This document shows, one piece after another, positions 29,528 through 53,157 of a stretch of 64,000 nt of DNA; position 1 is the first letter of the stretch; every line of letters starts with the position of its first letter. Source of the stretch: Methanomassiliicoccus sp. (GTDB lineage: Archaea > Thermoplasmatota > Thermoplasmata > Methanomassiliicoccales > Methanomassiliicoccaceae); assembly GCA_033485155.1 (NCBI GenBank), contig JAWQJJ010000002.1, positions 248,001 to 312,000 of the forward strand. Direction: 5' to 3'. The notes under the pieces are model-generated. The model searched no databases, was not told where the DNA came from, and was given only the letters and a program-made list of their open reading frames with translations. Made by a program: the position numbers and the translations under genes.

Positions 29528-31702
29528 ATGAACAGACTTAAGGAATTTATGACGACCAAACCGAGATACAAATTGGTAGCGATCCCGGTTATCGCCACAT
29601 TGCTGTTGGTGGCAGTCCTGGCGCCTATGGCCCTGGATCAGTCCAGCACTGGTTTTGTGTTGATGAAGAAGAGCGCTACTATCACGTTGAACGTCACCAC
29701 TACCGATCTCCAGGTCGGCAAGAACGTCCACGTGTCGGGCATCCTCTCGGGGATCTCGACCAGGTCGGATGTCAGGATCTCGCTGACGGTTACCTTGCCC
29801 AATGGCTCAGTAGCTTATCCCACTCAGGGTAAGACGACGAGCACGGCTAGGGATGGCAGCTTCTCCATGGACTTCGTCCCGCGCGTGGCCGGTAACTACA
29901 CCTTCACCGCTTCCTACAACTCAAGCCAATATTCGGCATCAGCGAAGAAGGTGGTTTCTGTGCAGGGACCTTCGTCCAGCACCAACACTGGCACCGGGAC
30001 GTCCGTCTCCGCCATGGCCCTTAACATCACCTCCCCGAGCATCGTGCTCGGCAACAGCATCCACGCCGAAGGTAAGCTATCCTCGGCAGGCACCGCGGTC
30101 TCCGGCGCGGCCGTGATGGTCAATGTGACCCTGCCGAACGGAACGGTGACGACACTGTCGAGTTCCAAGGTCACCGACAGTAACGGTGCGTTCAGCGTCG
30201 ACTACACGCCGCCGGTTATCGGCAACTACAGCCTGACCGCGTCCTACCTAGGAGGCGCCACCATCGGTCCGTCAATCACCAGTGCGTCTTTCAAGGTGTC
30301 TTCGACACTGCCGACCACGCTCACCGCGACCTCCATGGTCCTGACACCGACATCGACAAGCGTTGAGACGGGCTCCACCATGCATGCCAGCGGATTGCTG
30401 AAGACGACGGCGGGCATATCTGGAGCCACGGTCAGCCTCAAGGTGACCCTGCCTGACGGCAGCACCGTTAACCCCACTCAGGGGTCTTCAGCGGTGACTA
30501 ACGGGTCCGGCGGGTTCTCCATGGACTACTCTCCTACCACGGCCGGCACCTACAAGTTCACGGCGACCTATGGCGGCAATGGGCAGTATGATGCCTCTTC
30601 GGTGACCGTGACCTTCACCGTGAAGGCTGCCACTACCACCACCCCGCCGTCCACCACCACCCCGACTTCATACACCTACGCCTACACGGTGACCGCTTCC
30701 GGTTCCACCTACACGACGAAGAGTGCCTCAGGGACCTCGGTGTACTCGGGGACCAACGCTGCGACCGCCATCCAGACCGCTCTCAGCTCGTTGACCTCGG
30801 GCCGGACAGCCAAGCAAGCGGTACTGCTCCAGGGGACCTTCTCCATAACCAAGGCGATCACCATACCCAACTATAGTGTCCTGGTGCTTAACGGCACCGT
30901 GTCCTGGGGCAACACCGGCACCGGCTACATGCTCGCCGCCAGCGGGGCACACGACTTCGAGGTCCAGGGAGGTACCTGGGACGGCAAGCGCGACGTCCGC
31001 TCCACTACGTCTTCCTCGAACCCCATGAACTTCGAGAACTGCTATAATGTGGTTATCGCCAACCTTCGGGTGACCAACGGGCCGTATGACAACATTGAGT
31101 TCCTGGGCGGCAACAACATCGTCATCCGCAACGTCGAGAGCGACCACTCCGACTGGGACTCCTTCATGATGGCGTGGTGCTCGAACTCGCTGATCGAGGG
31201 TTGCTACATCCACGACATCCTGCAGGGCGGCTGCTACTTCTACTGCGAAGACGACGGCATAGTTCAGCACATCGACAACAACATAATGCGGAACAACCGC
31301 GTGGAGCGCACTCTGACCTCCGGGCTGTCGCTTAGCCCCCGTGGGGCCGAGGACATCGTCTCCGGCGGCCTCATCGAGAACAACACGCTGGTCGACTGCG
31401 GGACGGATGGGGACCACCCGGCCATCAATGTCGGGTTCTCCTCCAATGGTAAGGGGACGATCGTCCGCAACAACGTCATCTCCTGTCCCGCCGGCCTGTC
31501 CGGAGCGGGCATCGAGTTCGGGGTCGATAATGGTCAATGCACCGGGAACACTATTTCCGGGACCGGGGAAGCGGGCATCTCCTGCACCGGGTCCGGGAAC
31601 ACGATATCCGGCAACCAGCTGAGCAAGTGCGGCACGCAGGGCTATCCCGCGATCTACAATGGCGGCTCGAACAACGTCGTCACCAGTAACACCGTCACCT
31701 GA
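29528..31702 (+). CDS. Secreted Ig-like/parallel beta-helix surface protein
   Basis: A 724-residue exported protein, paralogue of 677-2839. A basic N terminus and hydrophobic segment (about 15-37) are followed by three Ig-like repeats (about 51-143, 155-255, 268-368) with the 'VGKNVH..G.L...T.TLPNG.........G.FS.DY.P...G.Y.FTA.Y' pattern, one more than its paralogue. A Thr/Pro linker (about 371-385) leads to a right-handed beta-helix. The join 'YSGTNAATAIQTALSSLTSG' is almost the same in both. The helix resembles pectate-lyase or mannuronan-epimerase folds, but no catalytic residues were pinned down. It ends at a perfect 12-pair hairpin. Confidence 0.85.
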   Translation: MNRLKEFMTTKPRYKLVAIPVIATLLLVAVLAPMALDQSSTGFVLMKKSATITLNVTTTDLQVGKNVHVSGILSGISTRSDVRISLTVTLPNGSVAYPTQGKTTSTARDGSFSMDFVPRVAGNYTFTASYNSSQYSASAKKVVSVQGPSSSTNTGTGTSVSAMALNITSPSIVLGNSIHAEGKLSSAGTAVSGAAVMVNVTLPNGTVTTLSSSKVTDSNGAFSVDYTPPVIGNYSLTASYLGGATIGPSITSASFKVSSTLPTTLTATSMVLTPTSTSVETGSTMHASGLLKTTAGISGATVSLKVTLPDGSTVNPTQGSSAVTNGSGGFSMDYSPTTAGTYKFTATYGGNGQYDASSVTVTFTVKAATTTTPPSTTTPTSYTYAYTVTASGSTYTTKSASGTSVYSGTNAATAIQTALSSLTSGRTAKQAVLLQGTFSITKAITIPNYSVLVLNGTVSWGNTGTGYMLAASGAHDFEVQGGTWDGKRDVRSTTSSSNPMNFENCYNVVIANLRVTNGPYDNIEFLGGNNIVIRNVESDHSDWDSFMMAWCSNSLIEGCYIHDILQGGCYFYCEDDGIVQHIDNNIMRNNRVERTLTSGLSLSPRGAEDIVSGGLIENNTLVDCGTDGDHPAINVGFSSNGKGTIVRNNVISCPAGLSGAGIEFGVDNGQCTGNTISGTGEAGISCTGSGNTISGNQLSKCGTQGYPAIYNGGSNNVVTSNTVT

Positions 31703-34127: not shown

Positions 34128-36689
<2,562 letters not shown>

Positions 36690-36752: not shown

Positions 36753-38000
36753 TCAGCCCTTGCGGACGTCCCACCGGCGGTCCAGGATGATCTGCGACCG
36801 GAGCGGATCAGCCATACCGCCGGAGTTGAAGTCCGAGGGCATGGATACGTTGATCGCCCTCTCCACCCGGTGTCCGGCCAGCATATCGAAGCCCCCCATC
36901 TTATGGGCGCCGATGGTGATGGTGTAGTTACCGGCGACCAGCAACCGCTTGGGGAAGGTAAGCCGAGCTTCGAAGTTGCCAGGCCCCAGGCTGTCGTTTC
37001 GGCTGTCCCAGTCGGTAAAGTACGAGCGGATCAGTTCATCGCCCAGAGAATTGTTGATGAACACTCCCATGCGTAGCTTGTCCGCCCTCTCCGACAGGTT
37101 GAAACGCACGATGATGTCGAACTCCTCCGACCCGTCGATGAGTATGGCATCCCGTCCCGACTGGAGGATCTCCATGGACACAATCTCGATGCCCTGGGCT
37201 CTGACCGGGAAGATGCCGTCCTGAGCGTCGAGGGACTGCGAGTACTCGGCGATGACATCGTCGACCGCGCCCTTCCCCGCGACCTTTCCCGACTTGAGGA
37301 GCAGGGCGCTCTGGCACAGGTTCTTCACGGCGTGCATGTTGTGGGAGACGAAGATGACCGTGCGTCCCTCCTCGGACACCTCCTTCATCTTGCCCAGGCA
37401 CTTGGTCTGGAACTGCTGATCCCCGACCGCCAGCACCTCGTCGGCGATGAGGACGTCCGGCTCCAGATGCGCGGCCACGGCGAACGCCAGGCGGAGGTAC
37501 ATTCCTGAAGAGAACCTCTTGATGGGCGTATCCAGGAACTTCTCGACCTCGGCGAACTGTACGATGGCGTCGAACCGAGCCTCGATCTGCTTCTTGGTCA
37601 TCCCCAGGATGGCTCCGTTGAGAAAGATGTTCTCCCTGCCGGTCAGGTCCGGGTGGAATCCGGTGCCTACTTCCAGGAGGGACCCCACCGACCCGCGGAG
37701 AACGACCTCGCCCTCAGTAGGGTAGGTGATCTGGGAGAGGATCTTCAGGAGCGTGCTCTTTCCTGCCCCATTACGACCGATGATACCCACGCTCTCTCCC
37801 TTCTGTACGTCGTATTTGATGTCCTGCAGGGCCCAGAAGCACTCCTTGGGCTGGCGGACGTTCTTGATGCTGCGGATAGGATGGCGGACCGCCATGGCCA
37901 GATTGTCGCCCAGCCTCCCGCCCCCGGCATGATAGTAGCCTTTGCTCTGACTTATGAAATACTGCTTAGAAACATTCCGAATCTCGATCATGGGCTCCAA
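36753..38000 (-). CDS. Wzt-like ABC ATPase for polysaccharide export
   Basis: A 415-residue ATPase of the O-antigen/teichoic-acid export class. The NBD has Walker A GRNGAGKST, signature 'FSSGMYLRLAFAVA' and Walker B 'LIADEVLAVGD', all characteristic of Wzt/TagH. From about residue 250 an extra beta-sandwich domain ('IEIVSMEILQSGRDAILIDG') resembles the Wzt C-terminal domain that recognises the glycan end. The TTG start has GGAGGTG five bases upstream; an in-frame ATG lies at 37991. The matching permease is not adjacent but about 18 kb away (56184-57011). It lies just upstream of gmd on the same strand. Confidence 0.9.
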   Translation of the reverse strand: MEPMIEIRNVSKQYFISQSKGYYHAGGGRLGDNLAMAVRHPIRSIKNVRQPKECFWALQDIKYDVQKGESVGIIGRNGAGKSTLLKILSQITYPTEGEVVLRGSVGSLLEVGTGFHPDLTGRENIFLNGAILGMTKKQIEARFDAIVQFAEVEKFLDTPIKRFSSGMYLRLAFAVAAHLEPDVLIADEVLAVGDQQFQTKCLGKMKEVSEEGRTVIFVSHNMHAVKNLCQSALLLKSGKVAGKGAVDDVIAEYSQSLDAQDGIFPVRAQGIEIVSMEILQSGRDAILIDGSEEFDIIVRFNLSERADKLRMGVFINNSLGDELIRSYFTDWDSRNDSLGPGNFEARLTFPKRLLVAGNYTITIGAHKMGGFDMLAGHRVERAINVSMPSDFNSGGMADPLRSQIILDRRWDVRKG

Positions 38001-38153: not shown

Positions 38154-38223
38154 ATCGTTCGCACGGCACTGGTGCTGATAGAAAAGATTTACATAGTCCC
38201 TGTATTAATATAAGTCGACCGAT

Positions 38224-39426
38224 ATGCAACTTGACGAGTCCGCGAAGAAGATTAAGGACGTCTCCTGGAGACGGGTCCTCAACTCTCACATGGGTTTCAC
38301 CAACGAGTTCATCATCGAGCTCGAGAGTGGCAATATCGGTATCGGAGCGTCGCCCCAGGGGGAGACCATCAGCATTTTCGAGGATCGGACCACTCGCTCC
38401 GATGCCGGGGGCATCGTCGAGGAGATGCGCGCGGATCGGTCGTTCGACCGGCCGGTGACCCAAGCGGACGTCGACGCTTTCCTGGAGCAGAGGATGAAGC
38501 GGTTCGGCCGCAATAACTGCTGGGCGCTATCGCTGGCGTTCTTCAACGCCTCCCAGTTCCCACCCTCCCGGTTGTGGGGGTCCAGGGACGGCCGGGATGT
38601 GGCCCGGTTCCCCCGTCTGTGCCTTAATGTCGTCAACGGTGGGAACCATGCGTATACCAATCCCATCCTCAGCGACTTCCCGGAGTATCTCTATGTGCCG
38701 CGCTTCGACGATGTCGGGCAGGTCATCCAAGACCATGCGGCCATGCAGACTGATATCAGGGAGAGGCTGGCGAAGTGCAAGCGCAGGATAGTCAACGGCA
38801 ATCCGGTGTTCTGCTTCGACACTCCTGACAACCGAGAGGTCTTCCGCTTCCTCCAGGATACCCTCGACCGGCTGGGGCTCGGGGACCGTTATGATATTTG
38901 GGTCGATGCGTCGGCGGGGGATCTGTGGACCGAAGAAGGATATAATTTCTCGGTCACCGACGGGTCGGTGAGGTCGTCGGAGGACCTGACCAGTTACTGG
39001 ATGGACATCATCAAGGAGTTCGGGCTGGGATTCCTGGAGGATCCGCTCCGGGAGCTAGACCACGAAGCCTGGAAGGCGCTCGCCGGCGGTCAGTCCCGGT
39101 GCAAGATAATCGGTGACAACCTGTACTCCACCGACCCTGCCAGGATCGAGAGCGGGGCCAGAGAGGGCCTTACCCACGGTGAGATCATCAAGCCCAACCA
39201 GGCGGGGACGGTCACCGCGGTCCTGCGCGCGGTGGAGGTCGCTAACAAGCATGGGCAGATCACCATCACCTCTCACAGGTCCATCAGCACGGAGTCGACC
39301 TTCCTTTCCCCCTTGACCGTGTTCGGCGGGGTTAGGTACATGAAGATCGGCCCGCTGTACACCGATTACTCATCCGTGCTCCGACTGAACGAGCTGATCC
39401 GGCTGACGGGGGCGAACATTGGCTGA
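38224..39426 (+). CDS. Divergent enolase homologue lacking the second catalytic glutamate
   Basis: A 400-residue member of the enolase family. Conserved features: GAS loop near the N terminus, 'LNVVNGGNHA' (His142), Glu154, metal ligands Asp228, Glu272 ('FLEDP') and Asp298 ('IGDNL'), base Lys323 ('IKPNQAGT'), 'TSHRS' (His351) and Lys374. The segment that in enolases reads GDEGG and supplies the proton-donating Glu211 is replaced (around residues 192-196, 'GNPVF'). A glycolytic enolase is therefore unlikely; elimination of water or phosphate from a related sugar acid is possible. It overlaps the phosphatase gene by eight bases and heads an operon with it and a PaaK-like ligase. Confidence 0.85.
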   Translation: MQLDESAKKIKDVSWRRVLNSHMGFTNEFIIELESGNIGIGASPQGETISIFEDRTTRSDAGGIVEEMRADRSFDRPVTQADVDAFLEQRMKRFGRNNCWALSLAFFNASQFPPSRLWGSRDGRDVARFPRLCLNVVNGGNHAYTNPILSDFPEYLYVPRFDDVGQVIQDHAAMQTDIRERLAKCKRRIVNGNPVFCFDTPDNREVFRFLQDTLDRLGLGDRYDIWVDASAGDLWTEEGYNFSVTDGSVRSSEDLTSYWMDIIKEFGLGFLEDPLRELDHEAWKALAGGQSRCKIIGDNLYSTDPARIESGAREGLTHGEIIKPNQAGTVTAVLRAVEVANKHGQITITSHRSISTESTFLSPLTVFGGVRYMKIGPLYTDYSSVLRLNELIRLTGANIG

Positions 39427-40045
39427 ACGCTGGTATCTTGCCACCATACGCCACGGCGAGACTGACTTCAACAAGCAAAGCCGGTACGCGGGGACGATGG
39501 ACATCCCCCTCAACGGAGCGGGCCGGGAGGACGCCAGGCGGGCCTACGGAGAGATCATGAGAATCGGATTCGACGTGTCGGTGGCTTCGCCCTTGCAACG
39601 AGCCGTGGAGACGGCCGAGATACTGACCGGAGGCAGCGTGCGGGTCGTCACCTGCGAGCATGCCAGAGAGCGTGATTTCGGCGTTCTGCAGGGACGAACT
39701 AGCGCGGACGTGGAGAGCGTTAGGCCGCCCATACATTTCATTAAGGTGGGGAACGACTATCATTCCGTAGATATCCCCGGAGGAGAAAAGTTCGAGGACC
39801 TGAGGGCCCGTGCCGAAAGGTTCCACCAATACATGCTCGACAACCACCGGGGCCGGCGGGTGCTGGTGGTCTCCCATGGAGTCTTCCTCCAGCAGTACCA
39901 CGGGGTCCTTAGGGGACAGGACTGGATCGACGCGCTGTGCTCCCATGTGGGGAACCTGGAGCTTACCATGTTCGAGATGGACGGCGACAGGGTGGTATCG
40001 GAGGAGCGCAGACGACTGATGGGCAGAGCCCAGAACGAGTTCTGA
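39419..40045 (+). CDS. Histidine phosphatase (phosphoglycerate-mutase-like)
   Basis: A 208-residue branch-1 histidine phosphatase superfamily protein. The phospho-histidine motif RHGE is at residues 11-14 ('LATIRHGETDFNKQSRYAGT'), followed by 'ASPLQRAVETAEIL', the proton-donor region 'ERDFGVLQG' and the second catalytic His in 'VLVVSHGVF'. Such proteins are phosphatases or cofactor-dependent mutases; the length and 'DIPLNGAGRE' fit the CobC/GpmB type. The TTG start has GGGGG six bases upstream and overlaps the enolase-like stop. The pairing with an enolase-like protein suggests a phosphoglycerate-like or phospho-sugar-acid substrate. Confidence 0.9.
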   Translation: MAERWYLATIRHGETDFNKQSRYAGTMDIPLNGAGREDARRAYGEIMRIGFDVSVASPLQRAVETAEILTGGSVRVVTCEHARERDFGVLQGRTSADVESVRPPIHFIKVGNDYHSVDIPGGEKFEDLRARAERFHQYMLDNHRGRRVLVVSHGVFLQQYHGVLRGQDWIDALCSHVGNLELTMFEMDGDRVVSEERRRLMGRAQNEF

Positions 40046-40102
40046 GCTCCCACCGTTCACCATGGTTGCCAGCAGATGACCGAAAAACGAAGGGGAAGGA
40101 AA

Positions 40103-41515
40103 ATGGCTGTCAGCAAGGAGCTGTACATTAAGATGCAGAACAAGGTGCAGCCGCATCTCAAGAGCGTATATACTCGGGCCAGCAGGGTGCTTCCGGAATC
40201 ACTGATCATGTCCGAGAGGTACTTCGAGGCCAAGAGGTACCTGGAGCTGGAGGACATCAATGATGAGTCCTCCGCGTCCATCCATTCAGCCCAAGAGGTC
40301 CTCCTGACCAGGACGCTGAAGAACGCCCTCGAGAACGTCCCCTACTATCGGGACCGGGTGAATCTGGATCCGGACAAGATCGTTCCTTCCACCGCGATGG
40401 ATTCCCTGCGTCTGTTCCCCTACATCGACAAGCAGGAGATCACCTCTCATCCGGAAGAGTTCATTTCCGACCGGTTCAGCAAACTGTCCCTCATATACAC
40501 CACCAGCGGCGGATCGACCGGCCAAGGGGTTGTGCTCTGGAAGAACCGCGATGAGTATCAGGTGGAGGAGGCGTTCATCGAGGACATGTGGGGCCGGTAC
40601 GGCTACGAGCGAGGAGCTAGGATCCTCCGCATCGCGGCGGACGGGATCGCCCCCGAGGACAAGCCCCCCTGCCGCCGCCAGGACCGCCGCCTGCTGGTAT
40701 CCCCCCGCCACCTCAACGACAAGTGGCTGGACCACATCATCGACCGATCGCAGGAGTTCCGGCCGGAGTTCATTCACACCTATCCCTCCTGCCTCGAGGT
40801 CGTGGCCGCTCATCTCAAGGCTACCGGACGGACCCTGAACGTCAAGGGCATCTTCCTGGCATCGGAGGAGGTCACCTCCGAGCAGCTTGACTTCTTCCAG
40901 GAGGTTTTCCATGTCCCCATATGCTTTTTCTACGGGGCGTCGGAGCACGTCCTCCTCGGCTATGGCTGCTACGACGGGACGCGGACCACGTATCATATGA
41001 ACCCTCTATATGGGTACGCAGAGAACCGGGAGGACGAGTACGGCTTCGAGCTGGTGGGTACCGGACTGTGGAACGAGGCCATGCCGCTAATCCGCTACCG
41101 GACCCAGGACTACGGTCGCATCGCAGAACTCGTGAAATGCCCGACCTGCGGGCGGAGGGTGAGGACCGTGGAGCGGCTGGATGGACGGAAGCAGAACTAC
41201 CTTATCACCAAGCAGGGCACCAGGTTCCCCGGCCTGTCGGTATGGGTGGACAAGTTCATATGGGACTATGTGAGCACGTTCCAGTTCGTTCAGAACCGGC
41301 CGGGGGCGATCGAACTCCATATCTGTCCGAGGGACAACCTGACTCCCGAGGTGGAGCAGAGGATCATCGAAGCCCAGCGGCAGAAGCTCTCCGACTGGTT
41401 CGATCCGATCACCCTGGTCAAGGTCCCCCGGATCGATCAGACCAAGGGAGGAAAGCGCCGATTGGTAGTTGTCAACATCGAAGGCGAGGTCAAGAATGCC
41501 CCTTCAACGCACTAG
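40103..41515 (+). CDS. PaaK/CapK-like AMP-forming ligase
   Basis: A 470-residue adenylate-forming protein related to phenylacetate-CoA ligase. The N terminus 'YFEAKRYLELED' and 'LKNALENVPYYRDRV' are typical. The P-loop is 'IYTTSGGSTGQGVVLW', the adenine region 'FFYGASEHVLLGYGCY', and the Asp of 'YRTQDYGRI' binds ribose. A CPTCGRR metal-knuckle-like segment follows, as in PaaK relatives. It would activate a carboxylic acid as acyl-AMP and pass it to a thiol or amine. The ATG at 40103 with GGGGAAGGA is preferred over the one at 40076. Third gene of the operon; the acid is unknown. Confidence 0.85.
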   Translation: MAVSKELYIKMQNKVQPHLKSVYTRASRVLPESLIMSERYFEAKRYLELEDINDESSASIHSAQEVLLTRTLKNALENVPYYRDRVNLDPDKIVPSTAMDSLRLFPYIDKQEITSHPEEFISDRFSKLSLIYTTSGGSTGQGVVLWKNRDEYQVEEAFIEDMWGRYGYERGARILRIAADGIAPEDKPPCRRQDRRLLVSPRHLNDKWLDHIIDRSQEFRPEFIHTYPSCLEVVAAHLKATGRTLNVKGIFLASEEVTSEQLDFFQEVFHVPICFFYGASEHVLLGYGCYDGTRTTYHMNPLYGYAENREDEYGFELVGTGLWNEAMPLIRYRTQDYGRIAELVKCPTCGRRVRTVERLDGRKQNYLITKQGTRFPGLSVWVDKFIWDYVSTFQFVQNRPGAIELHICPRDNLTPEVEQRIIEAQRQKLSDWFDPITLVKVPRIDQTKGGKRRLVVVNIEGEVKNAPSTH

Positions 41516-41677: not shown

Positions 41678-42868
41678 TTGAAAACCTCTGTGATAGGATC
41701 GATCGAGGAGATGCGGGATTTCGAGGACCGCTGGGAACGGTTGAGGCTCGAGAGCGGCGGGACGGTCTTCTCCTCTGATTTCCTCGTTCGGACGTGGTTC
41801 GAGGCGTTCTCCAAGACGGCTTCCCCCAGGGTGGTCGTCGTAGAGAATGACCATGGCCTCATTGGTGTCGCCCCGCTGGCCTATTACAGGTACCGGGTAG
41901 CTGGATTTCCCTTCAAGATGTTGACCCTGGCTGGGGACGTCAAGGGACTGCTTCGGCTGTACACCAACTCGGTCCTTTACCGGAGTGAGGACCCTGAAGC
42001 TCTTGAATCCCTGGTCATGGCCATCAAGCGCCAGGACTGGAACGTGCTATGGACGGCCAACATGGACCGGTGCAAGCTAGTCGACCAGTACATGGAGAAG
42101 GCCTCATCCACCTGGAACTGCCTCGATTTCGACCCGGTCAGTAAGGTGACCATCCCCATACCCGACAGCGGCGAGATCAGCTGCCTGTTCGACAAGAAGG
42201 GGAAGCGGACGTTGAAGAAAGCACTCAACAAGATCGAGCGGGAGGGTCACCGTATGACCTTTAGGAACGTGCCCTACGAGGACATCGATCGAGCCGCCGA
42301 GACCTATGCCCAGCAGCATATCGGGCGCTGGGCCACCAAGGGGGGGAGCCACTTCAGCAACACGAACAACGTCGATTTCCTGAAGATGGCCAGCAAGGCC
42401 GCCTACACTCGGAAAAAGGGCTTCGTTTACGAGCTGGAGATCGACGGCCAGGTCGCCGCCCAGATGTTCGGCTTTCTGGAGGGGAGAACGGCCTATGGCT
42501 ACCGCATCGGCATGAGCAATGATTTCATGCCCTACTCCCCCGGTTGGCTCATTTGCAATTCCCTGTTCGCCGAGCTTCGGGAGAAAGGGATCGAATGCTG
42601 CGTGATGGGCCGCGGCTCGGAGCGGTACAAGTACGAGATGGGAGGGGTTGAGTCCCCTCTGGTGGGCATAGGAGCGACCCGGGGGATCGCTTCCTGGGTG
42701 TCCCGCATCGCATCGTCAAGGCCGGTAAAGGCCATCGGGTCTAGGCTCAATCAGAGCGGCCCGGCGAGCGTCCACATCGCTCCGGGGGAAACCCCTGTGG
42801 GAGCGGACGATATGTCGGAAGGGACGCGAAACCAGGCGCCGCTATCACCAGGAGGTGTTGAGGATTGA
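41678..42868 (+). CDS. CelD/FemAB-like GNAT protein, copy 1
   Basis: A 396-residue protein of the Acetyltransf_6 (CelD/BcsL, FemAB-like) family. It opens with 'EDRWERLRLESGGTVFSSDF' and 'VGVAPL'-like strands. The core 'IGRWATKGGSHFSNTNNVDF' is followed by the GNAT half: 'VAAQMFGFLEGRTAYGYRIG', 'YSPGWLICNSL' and 'RGSERYKYEMGG'. A tail of about 50 residues is unlike the other copies. The TTG start has GGGG upstream. First of four homologues in this stretch; the next overlaps it by four bases. Family members acylate polysaccharide or add amino acids; the substrate here is unknown. Confidence 0.85.
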   Translation: MKTSVIGSIEEMRDFEDRWERLRLESGGTVFSSDFLVRTWFEAFSKTASPRVVVVENDHGLIGVAPLAYYRYRVAGFPFKMLTLAGDVKGLLRLYTNSVLYRSEDPEALESLVMAIKRQDWNVLWTANMDRCKLVDQYMEKASSTWNCLDFDPVSKVTIPIPDSGEISCLFDKKGKRTLKKALNKIEREGHRMTFRNVPYEDIDRAAETYAQQHIGRWATKGGSHFSNTNNVDFLKMASKAAYTRKKGFVYELEIDGQVAAQMFGFLEGRTAYGYRIGMSNDFMPYSPGWLICNSLFAELREKGIECCVMGRGSERYKYEMGGVESPLVGIGATRGIASWVSRIASSRPVKAIGSRLNQSGPASVHIAPGETPVGADDMSEGTRNQAPLSPGGVED

Positions 42869-43980
42869 AGAGCACAGTCATAACTTCTTACGAGGAGCTT
42901 GCTGAGCACGAGGATCGCTGGGAAGTGTTAAGGAGGGAATGCAGGGGCACTGTGTTCTCTTCCAACTACCTGACCCAGGCCTGGTTCAAGGCCAATGAGG
43001 CATCGGCGGCTCCTAGGGTCATCCTGATCGAGGACAAGGGTGAGCTGGTTGGCGTTGCGCCATTGACGACATACCGGTACAAGGTCGCCGGGATCCCCGT
43101 TAAGATGCTGGCCCTCGCCGGCGAGATGAAGGACCGCCTACGGCTTTCCACCACTCAGGTGCTCTATCCTCAGGGGCGGGCTGATGTCCTCCATGAGATC
43201 ATCGACCAGATCAAGCGCCTGGACTGGGGCATGATGACGACCATCAACCTGGAGAGCAATCGGGCCACCAAGGACTTCCTTGAAGCGGTTCGAGGGAAAT
43301 GGTTCACCACGGAGTTCCCCCAGGGCCAGAAGCTCACCCTCACCCTACCGGCGGAGGGGGACATCACCCAGAACTTCAACTTCAACGCCCGGCGCAACCT
43401 GAAGAAGAACCTGCGACGTATGGAACGGGCCGGGCATACCATAGAGCTCAAGCGGCTGGCGGCAGAAGACATCGACCGGGCGGTCGATGTTTACACTCAG
43501 CAGCACATCGAGCGCTGGGCCTCCAAGGGAGGGAGCTACTTCCGGAACCCGGAGAACCCTGGCTTCCTCAGGGAGGCGGTCATGGCGGCATACAAGCGGG
43601 ACGTAGGCTTCGCCTACGAGCTCCTGATCGACGGTCAGATCGCTTCCCAGCGCTTCGGGTTCTTTGACGGGGACCGCGCCTACGGTTACCGTTTCGGCAT
43701 GAACAATGCGCTGATGGACCATTCCCCCGGTTGGCTGATGAACTATTACTTTTTCAACGAATTGAGGGACAAGGGATACACCACCCTAGTGATCGGCGCG
43801 GGGACAGAGTCCTACAAGTACGAGATGGGCGGAGAGGTCACCCCGCTCATCGGGGTGCGGGCCTCCCGAGGTGTCGTGTCCCTGATGAACCGGGTCCTGA
43901 TGTCGCCGTTCATGCAGCGGCTCGACGATCGGTTCGGGCTCACTAACAAGGTCGTCAAGACCGGCTCGGAGACCGACTGA
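42865..43980 (+). CDS. CelD/FemAB-like GNAT protein, copy 2
   Basis: A 371-residue homologue of copy 1. Landmarks are 'EDRWEVLRRECRGTVFSSNY', the basic helix 'NFNARRNLKKNLRRMERAGH', 'HIERWASKGGSYFRNPEN', and the C-terminal set 'HSPGWLMNYYF' and 'GAGTESYKYEMGG'. The TTG start overlaps the stop of copy 1 (TTGA) and has GGAGGTG upstream, so translation is coupled. A run of eight T follows the stop. The protein looks complete, with a GNAT fold in each half, as in FemX-type enzymes. Confidence 0.87.
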   Translation: MKSTVITSYEELAEHEDRWEVLRRECRGTVFSSNYLTQAWFKANEASAAPRVILIEDKGELVGVAPLTTYRYKVAGIPVKMLALAGEMKDRLRLSTTQVLYPQGRADVLHEIIDQIKRLDWGMMTTINLESNRATKDFLEAVRGKWFTTEFPQGQKLTLTLPAEGDITQNFNFNARRNLKKNLRRMERAGHTIELKRLAAEDIDRAVDVYTQQHIERWASKGGSYFRNPENPGFLREAVMAAYKRDVGFAYELLIDGQIASQRFGFFDGDRAYGYRFGMNNALMDHSPGWLMNYYFFNELRDKGYTTLVIGAGTESYKYEMGGEVTPLIGVRASRGVVSLMNRVLMSPFMQRLDDRFGLTNKVVKTGSETD

Positions 43981-45963: not shown

Positions 45964-47118
45964 CTGCAGGCGAAAGTAATCAATTCCCTCGATGGGTTAT
46001 CGGAGCATGAGGGGGGTTGGGAGGATCTCCGGCGCGAGTGTGGGGGTACGGTCTATTCCTCATTCTTCCTGACTCGGGCATGGTTTGAAGCGTTCTCAGG
46101 CTCTGCCGCTCCCCGAGTCATAATTATCGAGGAGAATGGAGAAATCGTGGGTCTGGCACCCCTGTGTACCTATCGATATCGCGTAAAAGGCCTCCCTATA
46201 AAGGTCCTCTCTCTCGCCGGGGACATGCGCGACAGGCTCAGGCTCTCAACCAACTCGATACTCTATCGTCCGGATCGTTTCGATGTGCTCGAAACCCTCC
46301 TGGGCGAGATCAAGAAGCTTGACTGGAGCGTCCTGTGGGCGATCAATATGGAGAGATCGGAGCCCACAGGCCATTTCATCGAAAGGGTGAGGTCAACCTG
46401 GAACGTCATCGAGTGCGATGAGAAGAGCAACCTGGTGGTACCTCTCCCTGCTGCCGGGGACCTGAGCGAGATGTATGATTACAATGCGAGGAGGAACTAT
46501 CGGAAGATAGTCAACCGCATGGAGCGGGAGAAGATGGAGGTGAGGCTGGAGGAGATCACAGCGGACGGCATCGACCAGGCGGTGGATCTCTACGCGAGAC
46601 AGCACATCGAGCGCTGGGCCTCCAAGGGCGGGAGCTACTTCCGGAACCCGGAGAACGTCAAGTTCATGAAGCTGGCCACGCGAGAAGCCTGCGCCCGCCA
46701 CTACGGTTACGCCTACCAGCTGCGTATCAACGGAGAGGTGGCGGCCCAGGTGTTCGGATTCCAAGAAGGGAAGAGAGCCTATGGCGAGCGGATCGGAATG
46801 GACGACCGGTTCGGCCGATACTCGCCGGGATGGCTCATCAGCCACCGTCTGCTCATGACCTTGCGAGACCAGGGTGTGGAGGAGTTCGAGCTGGGGTGGG
46901 GGGGAGAGAGCTACAAGTACAAGATGGGCGGGGAGGAGAGGCCGTTAGTGGGGATTGGAGCGACCCGAGGAATAGTGTCTCTTGCCGTTCGCCTCGTCCT
47001 GCAGCCTCGGATGCAAGGAGTGAAGGACCGTCTTGGCATCATGTCCGGTAAGAGGGATGTCAAGCCGGCCGCCCAATCGATCGGACCGGAGCACGACCAG
47101 GAGAGCATAGTCCAATGA
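45964..47118 (+). CDS. CelD/FemAB-like GNAT protein, copy 3, CTG start
   Basis: A 384-residue homologue of copies 1, 2 and 4. The frame follows directly on a TAG at 45961-45963, and its first codons read L-Q-A-K-V-I-N-S, aligning with the first residues of copies 1 and 2 (TTG starts, K-T-S-V-I-G-S and K-S-T-V-I-T-S) and copy 4 (GTG start). There is no ATG, GTG or TTG before the conserved 'LRRECGGTVYSSFF', so CTG at 45964 is the likely start, with GGTG five bases upstream. A GTG at 46147 would delete 61 conserved residues. Later motifs: 'HIERWASKGGSYFRNPEN', 'YSPGWLIS', 'GWGGESYKYKMGG'. Confidence 0.85.
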   Translation: MQAKVINSLDGLSEHEGGWEDLRRECGGTVYSSFFLTRAWFEAFSGSAAPRVIIIEENGEIVGLAPLCTYRYRVKGLPIKVLSLAGDMRDRLRLSTNSILYRPDRFDVLETLLGEIKKLDWSVLWAINMERSEPTGHFIERVRSTWNVIECDEKSNLVVPLPAAGDLSEMYDYNARRNYRKIVNRMEREKMEVRLEEITADGIDQAVDLYARQHIERWASKGGSYFRNPENVKFMKLATREACARHYGYAYQLRINGEVAAQVFGFQEGKRAYGERIGMDDRFGRYSPGWLISHRLLMTLRDQGVEEFELGWGGESYKYKMGGEERPLVGIGATRGIVSLAVRLVLQPRMQGVKDRLGIMSGKRDVKPAAQSIGPEHDQESIVQ

Positions 47119-47131
47119 TGGGGGGAAATAG

Positions 47132-48247
47132 GTGAAGGTCACACTGATCGATTCTCCTGAGGAGCTGCCCGATTTCGAGGAGCGATGGGAATCATTGAGG
47201 CGGGAATGCGGGGGCACGGTCTTCGCTTCCAACTATCTGACGAGGGCATGGTTCGAGGGATACGGGCACATCGCCGAGCCCCGGGTGATAGTCGTCGAGG
47301 ACGGTGGGGACCTGGTGGGAGTGGCTCCACTGACCACATATCAATATCGCATCGGGAAGCTGCCGGTTAAAGTGCTCGCCCTGGCCGGGGAGATGAGGGA
47401 TCGATTGCGGCTATCCACCACCTCCCTGCTATTCATGCCGGAGCGCAAGGACATCCTTGACCTTATGATGCGGGAGATTAAACGCCTAGATTGGAACCTT
47501 TTCACGATGATCAACCTGGTGAGCACTCCGGCCAACACCACACTGATAGAGGAAGTAAGGACGAGCTGGCAGAGTTACGATTTCCCTCCCGGTCGAATGC
47601 TGACCGCCCATTTTACAGAGGGTGGCCGGTTGTTCGATACGCTGGATACCAAGACGAAGAAGAACATCAGATACCGCCTCAATCTGCTGGAGAGGGAGGG
47701 CCACCATATCGAATTCCGCCGACTACCGGCGGATGGCATCGACCAGGCGGTGGATCTCTACGCGAAGCATCACATCGAGCGCTGGGCCTCCAAGGGCGGG
47801 AGCTACTTCCAGAATCCCGATAACGTCCGGTATCTGAAGCTCTCCACCGCCAGCTCGTACCGCGCCGGTATCGGACATGTTTTCGAACTCCTCATCGATG
47901 GCAGGATCGCTGCCCAAGACTTTGACATCCTGGATGGAGAGACATGCTACGGCGATAAGACCGGCATGAGCAACGATTTCCTGCGCTACTCGCCCGGCTG
48001 GCTGGTCATGATGCATGCCATGGACCAGCTGCAGGACAGGGGAGCGAAGAGGTGCGTCATGGGGATCGGAGGAGAGAGCTACAAGTACGAAATGGGCGGG
48101 GTGGAGAGTCCGCTCATAGGGATCAGGGCGACCCGAGGCCTGGTCGCCGTCCTCAGCAAGGTGTCCGCTTCCCCGCTTGTGCAGAAGGTCAGCACTCGGC
48201 TGGGCTTCAAGGGGGACGAGGTCGCGGTGAACGTTCCACGCACCTGA
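47132..48247 (+). CDS. CelD/FemAB-like GNAT protein, copy 4
   Basis: A 371-residue homologue, 13 bases downstream of copy 3 and in the same transcript. Landmarks: 'EERWESLRRECGGTVFASNY', 'HIERWASKGGSYFQNPDN', 'YSPGWLVMMHAMDQL' and 'GIGGESYKYEMGG'. The GTG start has GGGGGG upstream. An 82-base block (47729-47810) differs at only four positions from 46561-46642 in copy 3, although the proteins as a whole diverge far more. Substrate unknown; different copies may use different acyl donors or acceptors. Confidence 0.87.
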   Translation: MKVTLIDSPEELPDFEERWESLRRECGGTVFASNYLTRAWFEGYGHIAEPRVIVVEDGGDLVGVAPLTTYQYRIGKLPVKVLALAGEMRDRLRLSTTSLLFMPERKDILDLMMREIKRLDWNLFTMINLVSTPANTTLIEEVRTSWQSYDFPPGRMLTAHFTEGGRLFDTLDTKTKKNIRYRLNLLEREGHHIEFRRLPADGIDQAVDLYAKHHIERWASKGGSYFQNPDNVRYLKLSTASSYRAGIGHVFELLIDGRIAAQDFDILDGETCYGDKTGMSNDFLRYSPGWLVMMHAMDQLQDRGAKRCVMGIGGESYKYEMGGVESPLIGIRATRGLVAVLSKVSASPLVQKVSTRLGFKGDEVAVNVPRT

Positions 48248-48345: not shown

Positions 48346-49545
48346 CTAAACTTCCCTTCCTCCCGCCTGGAAGATGAGGTTGGCGAAGGTGGCTCGGGAG
48401 AAGGTACGTGATATGGCTGGCCGAGGGTCGTCCCAGGCGTAGTAGGAGTAGCACCGGGCCTTCGTCCAGGGTTGGAGCACATCGGTTAAGGGGTTCAGCT
48501 GGCCGCGGCGGCCGATGACCGACAGTAGGTCCGACGGCCCGTTGAGCCAGCCCACTCCGTCACGCTGCTCCGGGGTCTCGGGAATTTCCTGGCCGGTAAG
48601 ATCAAGGTACTGGATCAGTGGAAAGTTGATCCCCGCCTGGGTGGCCTGGACTGTCTGATACCAGAACCGGCAGTTGATGTCCAGCATCTTGTAGGTCCCG
48701 TCCCGCGCGTCGAGCTTGAACTCAATATCGGCAATCCCCCGGTACCCCATTCCTTCCAGCAAGCGGACCCCCAGGGCGGCCACCTCTTCGTTGCGCACGC
48801 TCCTCACCAGCGTCCCCATCCCGAAATCGATGGGGTACTGCCGTATCTTCTGGGCGGTGAACACGCCCCTGGTCCGCCCTTTCTTGTCGATGTAGACGCT
48901 CACCTCGAAGTGGTTGGTGTTCGGTCCGACCACGATCTCCTGTACCATCGCTTCCAGGCCGGTAGGGAAGACCCGATCGAAGATGGAAGTGAGGTGTTCA
49001 GGACCATCGGCCCGAAAGCCCTTGTTGGGGAAGTGGACCCTCCACAGGTGGCCGGCGTAAGGCTTAACGAACACCGGATACTGCAGCCGGTCCCGCAGTT
49101 CCTCGACGTCCCCAGGGGTCCGGGGGTAAAAGGTCCTGGCGATGGGTATGCCCAGACGCTCAGCCTCGTCCTGCTGGAACCTTTTATCGGTCAATCCTCG
49201 ACAGACCCTCTCGTCAGGAAGGATTATCTCGAATCCCGCGGAAAGGGCGGTGCGATGCTGGGATACGAACTGCACCCAGTGATCGGAGGCGGGGAAGATA
49301 ACTCCCTTCTCGCCTAACTTGGCCGCCTCCTCCATGAGCGCATCGCGCGCCGATGCCGGTTCGCTCCGGGGGCTGGCGGTGAGCAATCCCTGGCCGTAGC
49401 GTGTGGATAAGCCAGCCGAAGGGGAGTAATCGACCACTGTGAGAGGAATCCCAACTCTCCCCAGGCTCCTGGCCACCCCCAGGCCGCTGACGTCTCCGTC
49501 CAGGACGAACGCCCTGGCCTCCCGCGAGAATGAGCTCGTGTCCAC
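48346..49545 (-). CDS. ATP-grasp ligase-like protein
   Basis: A 399-residue ATP-grasp protein. The N-terminal domain has 'AFVLDGDVSGLGVARSLGRV' and 'GVIFPASDHWVQFVSQHRTA'. The ATP-binding part includes 'YPVFVKPYAGHLWRVHF', 'EAMVQEIVVGPNTNHFEVSV' and 'DIEFKLDARDGTYKMLDINC', whose final Glu/Asp-Asn residues bind Mg-ATP. It shares layout with 27805-29070, including 'PASDHWV'/'PVSDQWV', so the two are paralogues. It would form an amide or ester from a carboxylic acid through an acyl phosphate. It starts 57 bases from the PaaK-like gene on the same strand, with an AT-rich gap between. Confidence 0.82.
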   Translation of the reverse strand: MDTSSFSREARAFVLDGDVSGLGVARSLGRVGIPLTVVDYSPSAGLSTRYGQGLLTASPRSEPASARDALMEEAAKLGEKGVIFPASDHWVQFVSQHRTALSAGFEIILPDERVCRGLTDKRFQQDEAERLGIPIARTFYPRTPGDVEELRDRLQYPVFVKPYAGHLWRVHFPNKGFRADGPEHLTSIFDRVFPTGLEAMVQEIVVGPNTNHFEVSVYIDKKGRTRGVFTAQKIRQYPIDFGMGTLVRSVRNEEVAALGVRLLEGMGYRGIADIEFKLDARDGTYKMLDINCRFWYQTVQATQAGINFPLIQYLDLTGQEIPETPEQRDGVGWLNGPSDLLSVIGRRGQLNPLTDVLQPWTKARCYSYYAWDDPRPAISRTFSRATFANLIFQAGGREV

Positions 49546-49602
49546 CGTGGTCCCCCGTTGTTGGATGGTCCCTTATTGTATTTATTGATACAAATAAATA
49601 TC

Positions 49603-51027
49603 TCATGCAGTCCGCGGAGCAATCAATCGGACCATATCTTCAGGGGCCAGCCTCGACTCCACGTTCTTCCATTTCTTCTGTTCCGGGAAGATGTCGAGGC
49701 TCTTTATCCTGATCCCGGCCTCGTACCCCAGCAGGCTGCGGAACCTCTCCTCCACGAGGGTCAAGTCACCTTCGGTCATCCCCTCGCGTCGGAACAGCTC
49801 CACCGTAAAGTCCCCCGCCTTCTCCTGAATCAGCTTCAGGTATTCGGGCACACCTGAAAGCCGAGGTATGATCTCTTTCTCGTAGTAGTTGTCGATGCCC
49901 ACTCCGGAAAGGGCCGTGCCGTCGGTAGTGATGATCATGTCGTTGACCCTCCCTTCGATCGACCTGAAGGTCAGATGGCTACATCCGCATGAGCAACCGT
50001 CCCCAATGGCCACATGGTCTCCCACATCGTAGTTGATGAGGGGCATGGATTTATTCCACAGGCTAGTGCCTATCACGCGCTCCATCCCCCATCCGTCCTC
50101 CACCACCCTTACTATCCCAGCCTCCATGGTCTGGTGATATGAGCCCTCGGCGCATTCTCCCGCTGAGATGACGTTCTCGGACTGCCCGTACCAATCGTAG
50201 ATCGGACAGCCGAGGCTGTTCTCGATAGTTTCCCGCATGAACCGGGGTAGCTGCTCGGAGCTGGTGTGCACGAACTTCGGGGCTACGTCCAAGGATATGC
50301 TGGAAGCTTCCATTCCCTTGGCCAGCACATATAGCGAATGAGGGTACCCCCTGATGATTTCGGGGCGGAAGCGGTTCAATCGATCAGCCATTCTCCGAAC
50401 ATTGATCGGCTCCAGCGCATAGGTGTTGAAGGTGAGCTCCCCTACCCGGCCGTCCCATCTCCACAGAGATCCGCTGGCTCGTTCAGAGACGAAGTCGCCG
50501 CGGAAGGAAGCGATGCGAGCGCTGAGGCCCGAGGCACCGCTGGCCAGGTAGTGCCGCCATACCGCGGCCTGCTCAATTTCGCGGGTCTGCTGGTCAAGGA
50601 GGAACCGAAGGGGGCGGCCGGTGGAACCGGTAGTATTGGCTTCCCCCGCCTGTTCGGAGAAGTCGACCGCCACCAATCGAGAATATTCGTTCCTGACGAT
50701 GTCCTTGGTCAGGATCGGTATTTTCTCCAATGTTCTTAGGTCCGCGGAGCTCGGGTCCAGCCCTGATCGATGGAACTGATCGTGGTAATACGGCACACTT
50801 TTTTCCGCATGGGTCAGCATAGCGCGCAGCCGATTGATTTGGTAGCGTTCCAGCTCCTCGGCGGACCAATGCTCGGAGCTGCGCAGATCGACCAATCGCT
50901 TGTAGAATCCGCTACCCAGTAAGGTCCTTCGGGGCAAAGGACGCATCATGGTGCTGACCATTCGACGAGCCCTCGGGGGCATGCTGTCGTAGAACCTCAA
51001 TCCCACGCTGTAGGGAACGAAGCTCAA
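49603..51027 (-). CDS. PaaK/CapK-like AMP-forming ligase
   Basis: A 474-residue adenylate-forming protein. 'ERYQINRLRAMLTHAEKSVP' and 'YYHDQF' are the typical N-terminal region, 'ANTTGSTGRPLRFL' the ATP loop, 'YDWYGQSENVISAGECAEGS' the adenine-binding part, and the Asp of 'NYDVGDHVAI' binds ribose; 'CSCGCSHLTFRSIEGRVND' is the metal-knuckle segment. It is a distant paralogue of 40103-41515 and would activate a carboxylic acid with ATP. The TTG start overlaps the stop of a small upstream frame (TTGA), so translation may be coupled. Substrate unknown. Confidence 0.85.
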   Translation of the reverse strand: MSFVPYSVGLRFYDSMPPRARRMVSTMMRPLPRRTLLGSGFYKRLVDLRSSEHWSAEELERYQINRLRAMLTHAEKSVPYYHDQFHRSGLDPSSADLRTLEKIPILTKDIVRNEYSRLVAVDFSEQAGEANTTGSTGRPLRFLLDQQTREIEQAAVWRHYLASGASGLSARIASFRGDFVSERASGSLWRWDGRVGELTFNTYALEPINVRRMADRLNRFRPEIIRGYPHSLYVLAKGMEASSISLDVAPKFVHTSSEQLPRFMRETIENSLGCPIYDWYGQSENVISAGECAEGSYHQTMEAGIVRVVEDGWGMERVIGTSLWNKSMPLINYDVGDHVAIGDGCSCGCSHLTFRSIEGRVNDMIITTDGTALSGVGIDNYYEKEIIPRLSGVPEYLKLIQEKAGDFTVELFRREGMTEGDLTLVEERFRSLLGYEAGIRIKSLDIFPEQKKWKNVESRLAPEDMVRLIAPRTA

Positions 51028-51137: not shown

Positions 51138-51513
51138 ATTTCCTCCGGATGGATGCAGCCCTCAGGCCCCGCTCCTTGGAGCGAGGGCCGTATGATGATG
51201 GGGCTGCAAGAAAAGCGGCCACTGTCGCCTGTGCCTTTCTTTCATTGAATCAAAGGACCTGATCACTCGATGCTCCCCCTCCATCGGCTCCCCCGTCCTA
51301 TGGCCCACCGCCACCGGGGATGTGAAAACTTCACCATAAATGCTAGCATGAGGAACCTGCCTTGTAGCTGCTGCCCGAATTATTTTGAGTAATATATATC
51401 CAACTTCCCCTTTTTGAATATCACGGCATTACATTATATCGATTGAATTCAATACTGGCTTGGTGCTAGGTAAAGTCGGTCACGATCGGCCACACTTGGC
51501 ACCGGTGGATGGG
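51138..51513. other. Divergent intergenic region
   Basis: No gene seen. The GC-rich part (51138-51350) has no clear signal. From about 51375 the DNA is AT-rich (AGTAATATATATCC, ACATTATATCGA), a good promoter zone for the gene at 51514. Confidence 0.5.
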
Positions 51514-53157
51514 ATGAGTTCCAAGCTTAGGGTCGGTTTGTTGTTGGACGGTGCGAGCGTGCCATACTGGGCCGCTCGGTCGATCGAGAGGATGGCCAAG
51601 CTGGAGTCAGCGGAGATCGTCTTGGTGGTGGTGGACGGGGGGACCGAAAAACCGATCGACCCCACGCGGGCCACGGAATCGTTCCTTTACGACACCTACA
51701 TCTGGTTAGACCGTCGGAAGAACCGCCAGGCCCTGGACCCACTGGCCCGGGAGGATCTGCCCAAGGAGCTGGACAAGGCGGGACGGGTGTATCTCAAGCG
51801 CACCGCGGATCCCCACCGGACCATTTCTGAGGAAGTGGTGAGCAAAATAAAAGAAAAGGACCTTGACGTCCTGATCGACATAGGAAAGGTCACCCCCCTG
51901 GGCGAGCTGTCGAGGTGCGCGAGACAGGGCGTTTGGTCTTTCTCCGCCGGCGACGGGGAAAGTTACGATGGCCATTCCCCGGGCTTCTGGGAGATCTACC
52001 ATCACGAGCCGATCACCTCCGCTCACGTCCGCCGGATATGCGGGGGCACCACATCCATCATCTACATTTCGCACTCGCACACCATCACTCGTTCGGAGAA
52101 GAAGAACCGTGACCAGCTCTACATCAAGGGCATATCGTTTCTCCCCCGCCTGCTGGACGAGCAATCGGCGAGGGGCAACGAGCCTCTTACCGCCAAGAAC
52201 GACGGGACGGTGACCGATTGGGGGCCCCTGCACCGCTCCGGCCCGGGCAACCTGGACATGCTGTCCTTCTACCTGCGACGCTTACCCCGGGACCTCACCT
52301 TCCTGACCAAGCGGGCGCTGTTCGAAGAGCGCTGGGGGGTCATGTACAGTATGGACGGGAAGATACCGTCCAACTACTCCGGGTTCAAGCATCTTGTGCC
52401 CCCTCCTCACACCTGGTGGGGGGATCCCATGGTCGCCCAAGATGACAAGGACTTCTACATCTTCGTCGAGGAGCTGGTACTCCCCAGAAGTCGCAACCAC
52501 GCGCACATATCGGTCATCAAGGTCGATGCCAAGGGGGGCCATCAGGCTCCGGTGACCGTGCTGGAGCGCCCCTACCATCTATCCTATCCCTTCGTTTTCC
52601 AGTGGAAGGGCACTCATTACATGGTGCCGGAATCCTCCAACAACCGGACCATCGAGCTTTATGAGGCGACCGAGTTCCCGTACAACTGGAAGCCGGTGAA
52701 GGAGATCATGACCGGGGTCTCGGCCGTCGACACCACATTGGTGCGACGGAACGGTTTGTGGTGGATGTTCACCAACATCCGGGAGAACGAGGGCGGACCG
52801 ATCAACGACGAACTCTTCCTATTCTACTCCGAGGACCTCTTGGCGGATCGCTGGGAGCCCCATCCCCTGAATCCCATCATCTCCGACGCCAGCACGGCCC
52901 GGCCCGCCGGACGAATCTTCGAAATGGATGGTGTGTTGTACCGTCCCTCGCAGGACTGCTCCCGATGCTACGGCTATGCGGTCAATATCAACCGCATCCA
53001 GGAGATGGACGAGAAGAGCTATCGGGAGACAAGGACGGCATATTTGGAGCCTAAGGAGTTCCCTGGGGCCAGTAGGGTCCACACCTTCAGCCATATCCAC
53101 GGCCTGACCGCGGTGGACACCTACATCGCCCGTTCCCGCTTCATCCCCAATCGCTGA
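51514..53157 (+). CDS. Formyltransferase-like/beta-propeller fusion (GINT1-N-like)
   Basis: A 547-residue cytoplasmic protein. Residues about 1-215 resemble the formyltransferase fold: 'KLRVGLLLDGASVPYWAARS', 'DVLIDIGKVTPLG' and 'GVWSFSAGDGESYDGHSPGF', where the last matches the 'G.hN.H' substrate region of formyltransferases. From about 265 on, a propeller of GH43/GINT1 N-terminal type follows: 'NYSGFKHLVPPPHTWWGDPM', 'KDFYIFVEEL', 'YPFVFQWKGTHYMVPESSNN'. The combination occurs in polysaccharide loci and may N-formylate or transfer an amino sugar; the reaction is not established. The ATG at 51514 has GGTGG upstream; a TTG at 51460 adds 18 unlikely residues. Confidence 0.75.
   Translation: MSSKLRVGLLLDGASVPYWAARSIERMAKLESAEIVLVVVDGGTEKPIDPTRATESFLYDTYIWLDRRKNRQALDPLAREDLPKELDKAGRVYLKRTADPHRTISEEVVSKIKEKDLDVLIDIGKVTPLGELSRCARQGVWSFSAGDGESYDGHSPGFWEIYHHEPITSAHVRRICGGTTSIIYISHSHTITRSEKKNRDQLYIKGISFLPRLLDEQSARGNEPLTAKNDGTVTDWGPLHRSGPGNLDMLSFYLRRLPRDLTFLTKRALFEERWGVMYSMDGKIPSNYSGFKHLVPPPHTWWGDPMVAQDDKDFYIFVEELVLPRSRNHAHISVIKVDAKGGHQAPVTVLERPYHLSYPFVFQWKGTHYMVPESSNNRTIELYEATEFPYNWKPVKEIMTGVSAVDTTLVRRNGLWWMFTNIRENEGGPINDELFLFYSEDLLADRWEPHPLNPIISDASTARPAGRIFEMDGVLYRPSQDCSRCYGYAVNINRIQEMDEKSYRETRTAYLEPKEFPGASRVHTFSHIHGLTAVDTYIARSRFIPNR

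Follow-up and report, generated by a model that had tools for sequence, protein, structure and literature searches.

A three-gene accessory cassette with a diverged enolase paralogue in a variable surface-glycan locus of Methanomassiliicoccus sp.

Organization of the locus

The analysed window comprises 64,000 nt of Methanomassiliicoccus sp. (GCA_033485155.1, JAWQJJ010000002.1, positions 248,001-312,000; G000:C2:248001-312000 in the 2.8 Mb host genome, G000), and all coordinates below are relative to it unless a genome prefix is given. Three genes located next to each other on the forward strand, at 38224-41515, encode successively an enolase-like protein, a histidine phosphatase and a PaaK/CapK-like ligase. 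The trio and its immediate surroundings are composed of the following features:

34690-36689, reverse strand: GDP-L-fucose synthase-like and GDP-mannose 4,6-dehydratase genes, the nucleotide-sugar part of the locus
36753-38000, reverse strand: Wzt-type ABC exporter ATPase, the left flank of the trio, found in relatives with and without the trio
38188-38223, forward strand: promoter-like stretch, TTTACATA, then AATATAAGTC immediately 5' of the ATG
38224-39426, forward strand: enolase-like gene, 400 aa (profile matches, residue alignment, model)
39419-40045, forward strand: histidine phosphatase, branch 1, PhoE/CobC/PspA-like (profile matches, motifs)
40103-41515, forward strand: PaaK/CapK-like adenylate-forming ligase (motifs; the longest ORF starts at 40076)
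41678-43980, forward strand: two of four tandem FemAB-like GNAT transferases, the right flank of the trio

The gene positions, the 8-base overlap between the first two genes and the gap before the third agree with the initial annotation. The histidine phosphatase gene begins with TTG, and both this start and the overlap are identical in a second species, Methanomassiliicoccus sp. MXMAG1. For the ligase gene, the ATG at 40103 is preferred over the start at 40076 on the basis of the alignment with the MXMAG1 copy and an upstream purine-rich stretch, and with this start the gap after the phosphatase gene amounts to 57 bases. The promoter-like stretch 5' of the enolase-like gene is mostly kept in MXMAG1 (locus L034), as suggested by a by-eye comparison of the upstream sequences.

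Farther to the right lie a flippase, an ATP-grasp protein, a second PaaK-like protein, a GINT1-type protein and glycosyltransferases, and a PIG-L deacetylase is also among the contents of the region. Judged by this gene content, the locus around the trio is a surface-polysaccharide locus; the surface-glycan setting proposed earlier for the operon is borne out by the nucleotide-sugar, glycosyltransferase, Wzt and flippase genes.

The four FemAB-like GNAT genes (41678-43980 and about 45964-48247) are fast-diverging tandem paralogues with poor one-to-one orthology among relatives. On the reverse strand, at 48346-51027, the ATP-grasp protein adjoins the second PaaK-like ligase, which differs from that of the trio; the pair is kept in the relative G001, and this second PaaK-like gene is present in the relative G005 too. 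The protein encoded at 51460-53157 (forward strand) possesses a GINT1_N domain, of the N-terminal type of the plant glucosamine inositolphosphorylceramide transferase; homologues occur in five further genomes of the genus, likewise in their glycan loci. The same glycan region also encodes, at 677-2839 and 29528-31702 (forward strand), large proteins of the surface type that contain Ig-like (Big) repeats and a right-handed beta-helix.

Family and paralogy of the enolase-like protein

The enolase-like protein matches Enolase_C with 95 bits. Against the TIGR01060 equivalog it reaches about 126 bits, below the curated cut-off of 300, and thus scores outside the glycolytic enolases. The initial annotation had regarded normal enolase activity, combined with the lack of any other enolase gene, as speaking against its reading; an ordinary enolase is encoded elsewhere in the host genome (G000:C3:66820-68070, 577 bits), in the same genome search that gave 124 bits for the enolase-like gene (cut-off 300). 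Because of this separate canonical enolase, the enolase-like gene is a paralogue, and it is thereby free for another role. The overall identity of its product to ordinary enolase is about 28%. A third enolase-like match in the genome (G000:C6, 28 bits) falls in frames that contain no enolase ORF and was taken as chance.

When placed in a tree together with 45 other enolases, the host and MXMAG1 proteins pair on a very long stem (about 6.5 changes per column), which leaves their position unsure; the tree gives no support to the idea that the gene was copied recently from the organism's own enolase. All genes of the trio are under purifying selection, with dN/dS between the host and MXMAG1 of 0.13 for the enolase-like gene, 0.12 for the histidine phosphatase and 0.16 for the PaaK-like ligase. 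The archaeal enolase paralogues described previously are located in a ribosomal superoperon or scattered (PMC4390880), and the enolase-like gene is a different case. A literature search for an enolase paralogue in glycan loci found none.

Active site and fold of the enolase-like protein

Both enolase-like copies (host and MXMAG1) were aligned with 45 ordinary enolases, and the residues are given here in yeast numbering. Twelve of the 21 functional positions are kept in both copies: E44, H159, E168, D246, E295, D320, K345, Q348, H373, R374, S375 and K396 (in the protein's own numbering, H142, E154, D228, E272, D298, K323, H351, R352, S353 and K374). They include (i) the Mg(I) ligands Asp246, Glu295 and Asp320, retained as D228, E272 and D298; and (ii) the base Lys345 together with Lys396, retained as K323 and K374. 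Every active-site residue named in the initial annotation is present.

The changes common to both copies are R14H, S39T, Q167P, D210N, E211P (or N, depending on gap placement), D321N and E377S, at positions that are changed in none of the 45 ordinary enolases. The GDEGG segment, whose replacement the initial annotation had noticed in the host, reads NGNPV in both copies and in 0 of the 45 ordinary enolases; Glu211 is Glu in all 45 of these, and its position holds neither an acid nor a base in the enolase-like copies. The two glycines of the segment, replaced by VF/VH, are not invariant among the ordinary enolases. At the Mg(II) site, Ser39 of loop 1 corresponds to Thr48 and Asp321 to Asn299, so that the canonical residues are not present; Thr48 could still bind metal. 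Both copies retain 36 of the 56 invariant columns; the losses are in many cases clustered in the DSRG stretch at the N-terminus, loop 1, GDEGG, D321 and SHRSGE.

During the enolase reaction, the alpha proton is abstracted by Lys345 and Glu211 serves as the general acid for hydroxide loss; Ser39 is a Mg(II) ligand and Asp321 orders the Mg(II) waters (PMC4450660). The E204A mutant of Mycobacterium tuberculosis enolase, altered at the equivalent of Glu211, is non-functional yet binds PEP, and on this basis normal dehydration is predicted to be lost with Glu211 (PMC10619443). From its residues, the enolase-like protein looks capable of the first half-reaction and not of the usual second half.

The AlphaFold2 model of the protein (pLDDT 76, pTM 0.79) has enolases only as its best PDB matches (TM 0.76-0.84 by query length) and displays the capping domain plus barrel fold, a result that is not independent of the sequence, as canonical enolases were included in the input alignment. 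The model is poor at the altered loops (residues 47-52, 188-195 and 353-361), exactly where the acid side is rebuilt, and this side is therefore not visible in it. Compared to enolase (TIGR01060 / PF00113), the protein shares the fold, the Mg(I) triad, Lys345, Lys396, His159, Glu168, His373, Arg374 and Ser375, but differs in the loss of Glu211, in S39T, D321N, R14H and E377S, and in its location in a glycan locus.

The histidine phosphatase and the PaaK/CapK-like ligase

The second protein matches His_Phos_1 with 141 bits and contains all the catalytic motifs (RHGE, SPLQR, ERDFG and SHG). R11, H12 and G13, as well as the second catalytic histidine, H153, are conserved in the MXMAG1 copy, which assigns the protein to branch 1. 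Its best PDB match is the phosphatase 1h2e/1ebb, with about 75 bits, whereas the dPGM models, with cut-offs of about 82-421, give no more than 56 bits, and the protein thus does not classify as a phosphoglycerate mutase. The catalytic motifs are shared with the PhoE/CobC/PspA-type histidine phosphatases, but the score remains under every equivalog cut-off. Branch-1 histidine phosphatases are often promiscuous, and gene adjacency therefore says little on the substrate.

The ligase has weak PaaK-type profile matches (50 bits against a PaaK cut-off of 646) and falls outside the phenylacetate-CoA ligases. The motifs YTTSGGSTG, YGASEH, YRTQDYG and the C-terminal TKGGKRR are present, and TTSGGSTG (residues 142-149) and YRTxD (341-345) are kept in the MXMAG1 copy, which places the protein in the PaaK-like adenylate-forming superfamily. 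The adenylation motifs are common to the CapK/PaaK-like ligases of polysaccharide loci. Plasmid homologues with about 25-29% identity are mostly located in polysaccharide loci, and none of the six examined has an annotated enolase neighbour. The ligase thus fits its setting, since CapK-like genes elsewhere are mostly found in such loci, and the enolase-like gene is the odd one. No assayed function was found in a literature search for CapK-like proteins of polysaccharide loci.

Distribution of the cassette

The whole trio occurs in one other species, MXMAG1 (G006). In the relatives G001 (L062/L065) and G005 (L064), the trio is missing from the same site, and a GNAT gene comes immediately after the Wzt gene. 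The neighbourhood search proposed in the initial annotation thus finds the three genes present together or absent together. The enolase-like gene was identified in two of the 147 genomes of the order, both of which carry the whole trio, a co-occurrence that rests on two species and thus on few independent cases.

The host is closer to the trio-less G001 and G005 than to the trio-bearing G006, with identities of 84.8-85.2% versus 83.5% for the canonical enolase, 88-89% versus 77% for Wzt and 76-80% versus 68% for the GINT1 protein. This relationship indicates that the cassette has been repeatedly lost, or has moved. Within this surface-glycan locus, which is variable, the trio forms an accessory cassette. 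None of the locus transferases, the GNAT acceptor candidates included, shares its pattern of presence and absence.

Beyond the two carriers, examination of 400 genomes of the class and of 390 of the phylum revealed no further copy of the enolase-like gene. When about 85,000 species genomes were scanned with a pattern, an approach that sees close relatives only, MXMAG1 alone matched. The best matches in the phylum without an obvious GDEGG carry GDEGA or GDEKA with the normal catalytic set and are ordinary enolases. The plasmid enolases examined as wider relatives retain the GDE motif, and no relative was found in viral contigs that would indicate a viral source.

Proposed function of the cassette

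The best overall explanation, held tentatively and at somewhat less than an even chance, is that of a three-enzyme accessory cassette making and activating an acid for the surface glycan. That the trio makes and activates a small acid is a reasonable interpretation, and it accounts most simply for the joint occurrence of a diverged enolase, a phosphatase and an acid ligase. The initial annotation had suggested such a small-acid operon, possibly starting from a phosphoglycerate or a phospho-sugar acid, and its proposal is partly supported: the freed paralogue, the loss of Glu211, the linkage of the trio, the type of locus and the CapK-like precedent speak for it. Against the cassette model stands the lack of a transferase that co-varies with the trio.

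The enolase-like protein retains the machinery of the first half-reaction (the Mg(I) site, Lys323 and Lys374) and the Arg/Ser pair binding the 2-phosphate. The proposed sequence of events would begin with the abstraction of the alpha proton from a 2-phosphorylated hydroxy acid. Without Glu211, no PEP would be made from 2-phosphoglycerate and another outcome would follow, the likeliest being an elimination on another acid with a leaving group that does not depend on Glu211; Glu154 and His142 could assist. The histidine phosphatase would then release the free acid from the phosphorylated product, and the PaaK/CapK-like ligase would activate it as acyl-AMP or acyl-CoA. At the end, a transferase of the locus would attach the acyl group to the polysaccharide; the FemAB-like GNATs are possible acceptor transferases for the product of the trio.

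The same residues bear on other readings. The enolase-like protein could be a pseudoenzyme that serves in binding or regulation, such as a 2-phosphoglycerate/PEP sensor or a scaffold for the phosphatase and the ligase, with all chemistry left to these two. The lost Glu211, the changed S39 and D321 and the inactive yet PEP-binding E204A mutant (PMC10619443) agree with such a role, which is nevertheless unlikely, as the Mg(I) triad, both lysines, His159, Glu168, His373, Arg374 and Ser375 are kept in both copies despite the identity of about 28%. Alternatively, the protein may still make PEP, or reverse PEP to 2-phosphoglycerate, with Glu154 as the acid, and supply a local demand, for instance for a pyruvyl ketal, or, after dephosphorylation, yield glycerate. 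The residues on the 2-phosphate and carboxylate sides are indeed kept, and the neighbouring enzyme belongs to a superfamily including phosphoglycerate mutases and phosphatases; the non-functional mutant at the Glu211 equivalent (PMC10619443), the intact enolase elsewhere in the genome and the phosphatase score, far under every phosphoglycerate mutase cut-off, make this improbable.

Reprotonation of the enolate on the other face would be an epimerisation at C2, converting D- to L-2-phosphoglycerate, from which the phosphatase would free L-glycerate for activation by the ligase. This would explain the retention of the first-half-reaction residues along with the loss of the dehydration acid, but a second base is not evident on the opposite face and the Glu211 position holds neither acid nor base, which leaves the route a low probability. 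Very improbable is a condensation as attributed to carboxyphosphonoenolpyruvate synthase, in which an enolpyruvate unit would be linked to an activated acid: that enzyme of the phosphinothricin pathway is, to our knowledge, the one other non-enolase member of the subgroup and a precedent for a non-dehydrating relative, but the host genome contains no PEP mutase (no match to TIGR02320) and the trio no nucleotidyltransferase, so that the phosphonate pathway itself is unlikely.

With the making and activation of an acid for the glycan as the preferred reading, the family context is as follows. Enolase is among the most conserved enzymes, and we know of almost no alternative functions in its close subgroup. 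There is nearly an even chance that the cassette, not described before, represents a new enzymatic function in this nearly monofunctional subgroup, namely a relative devoid of the dehydration acid that makes a precursor for glycan decoration. A paralogue under selection that keeps only the first half-reaction offers a clean test of the ways in which enolase chemistry can be redirected. If true, the proposed function would point to an unknown acid decoration on the archaeal cell surface.
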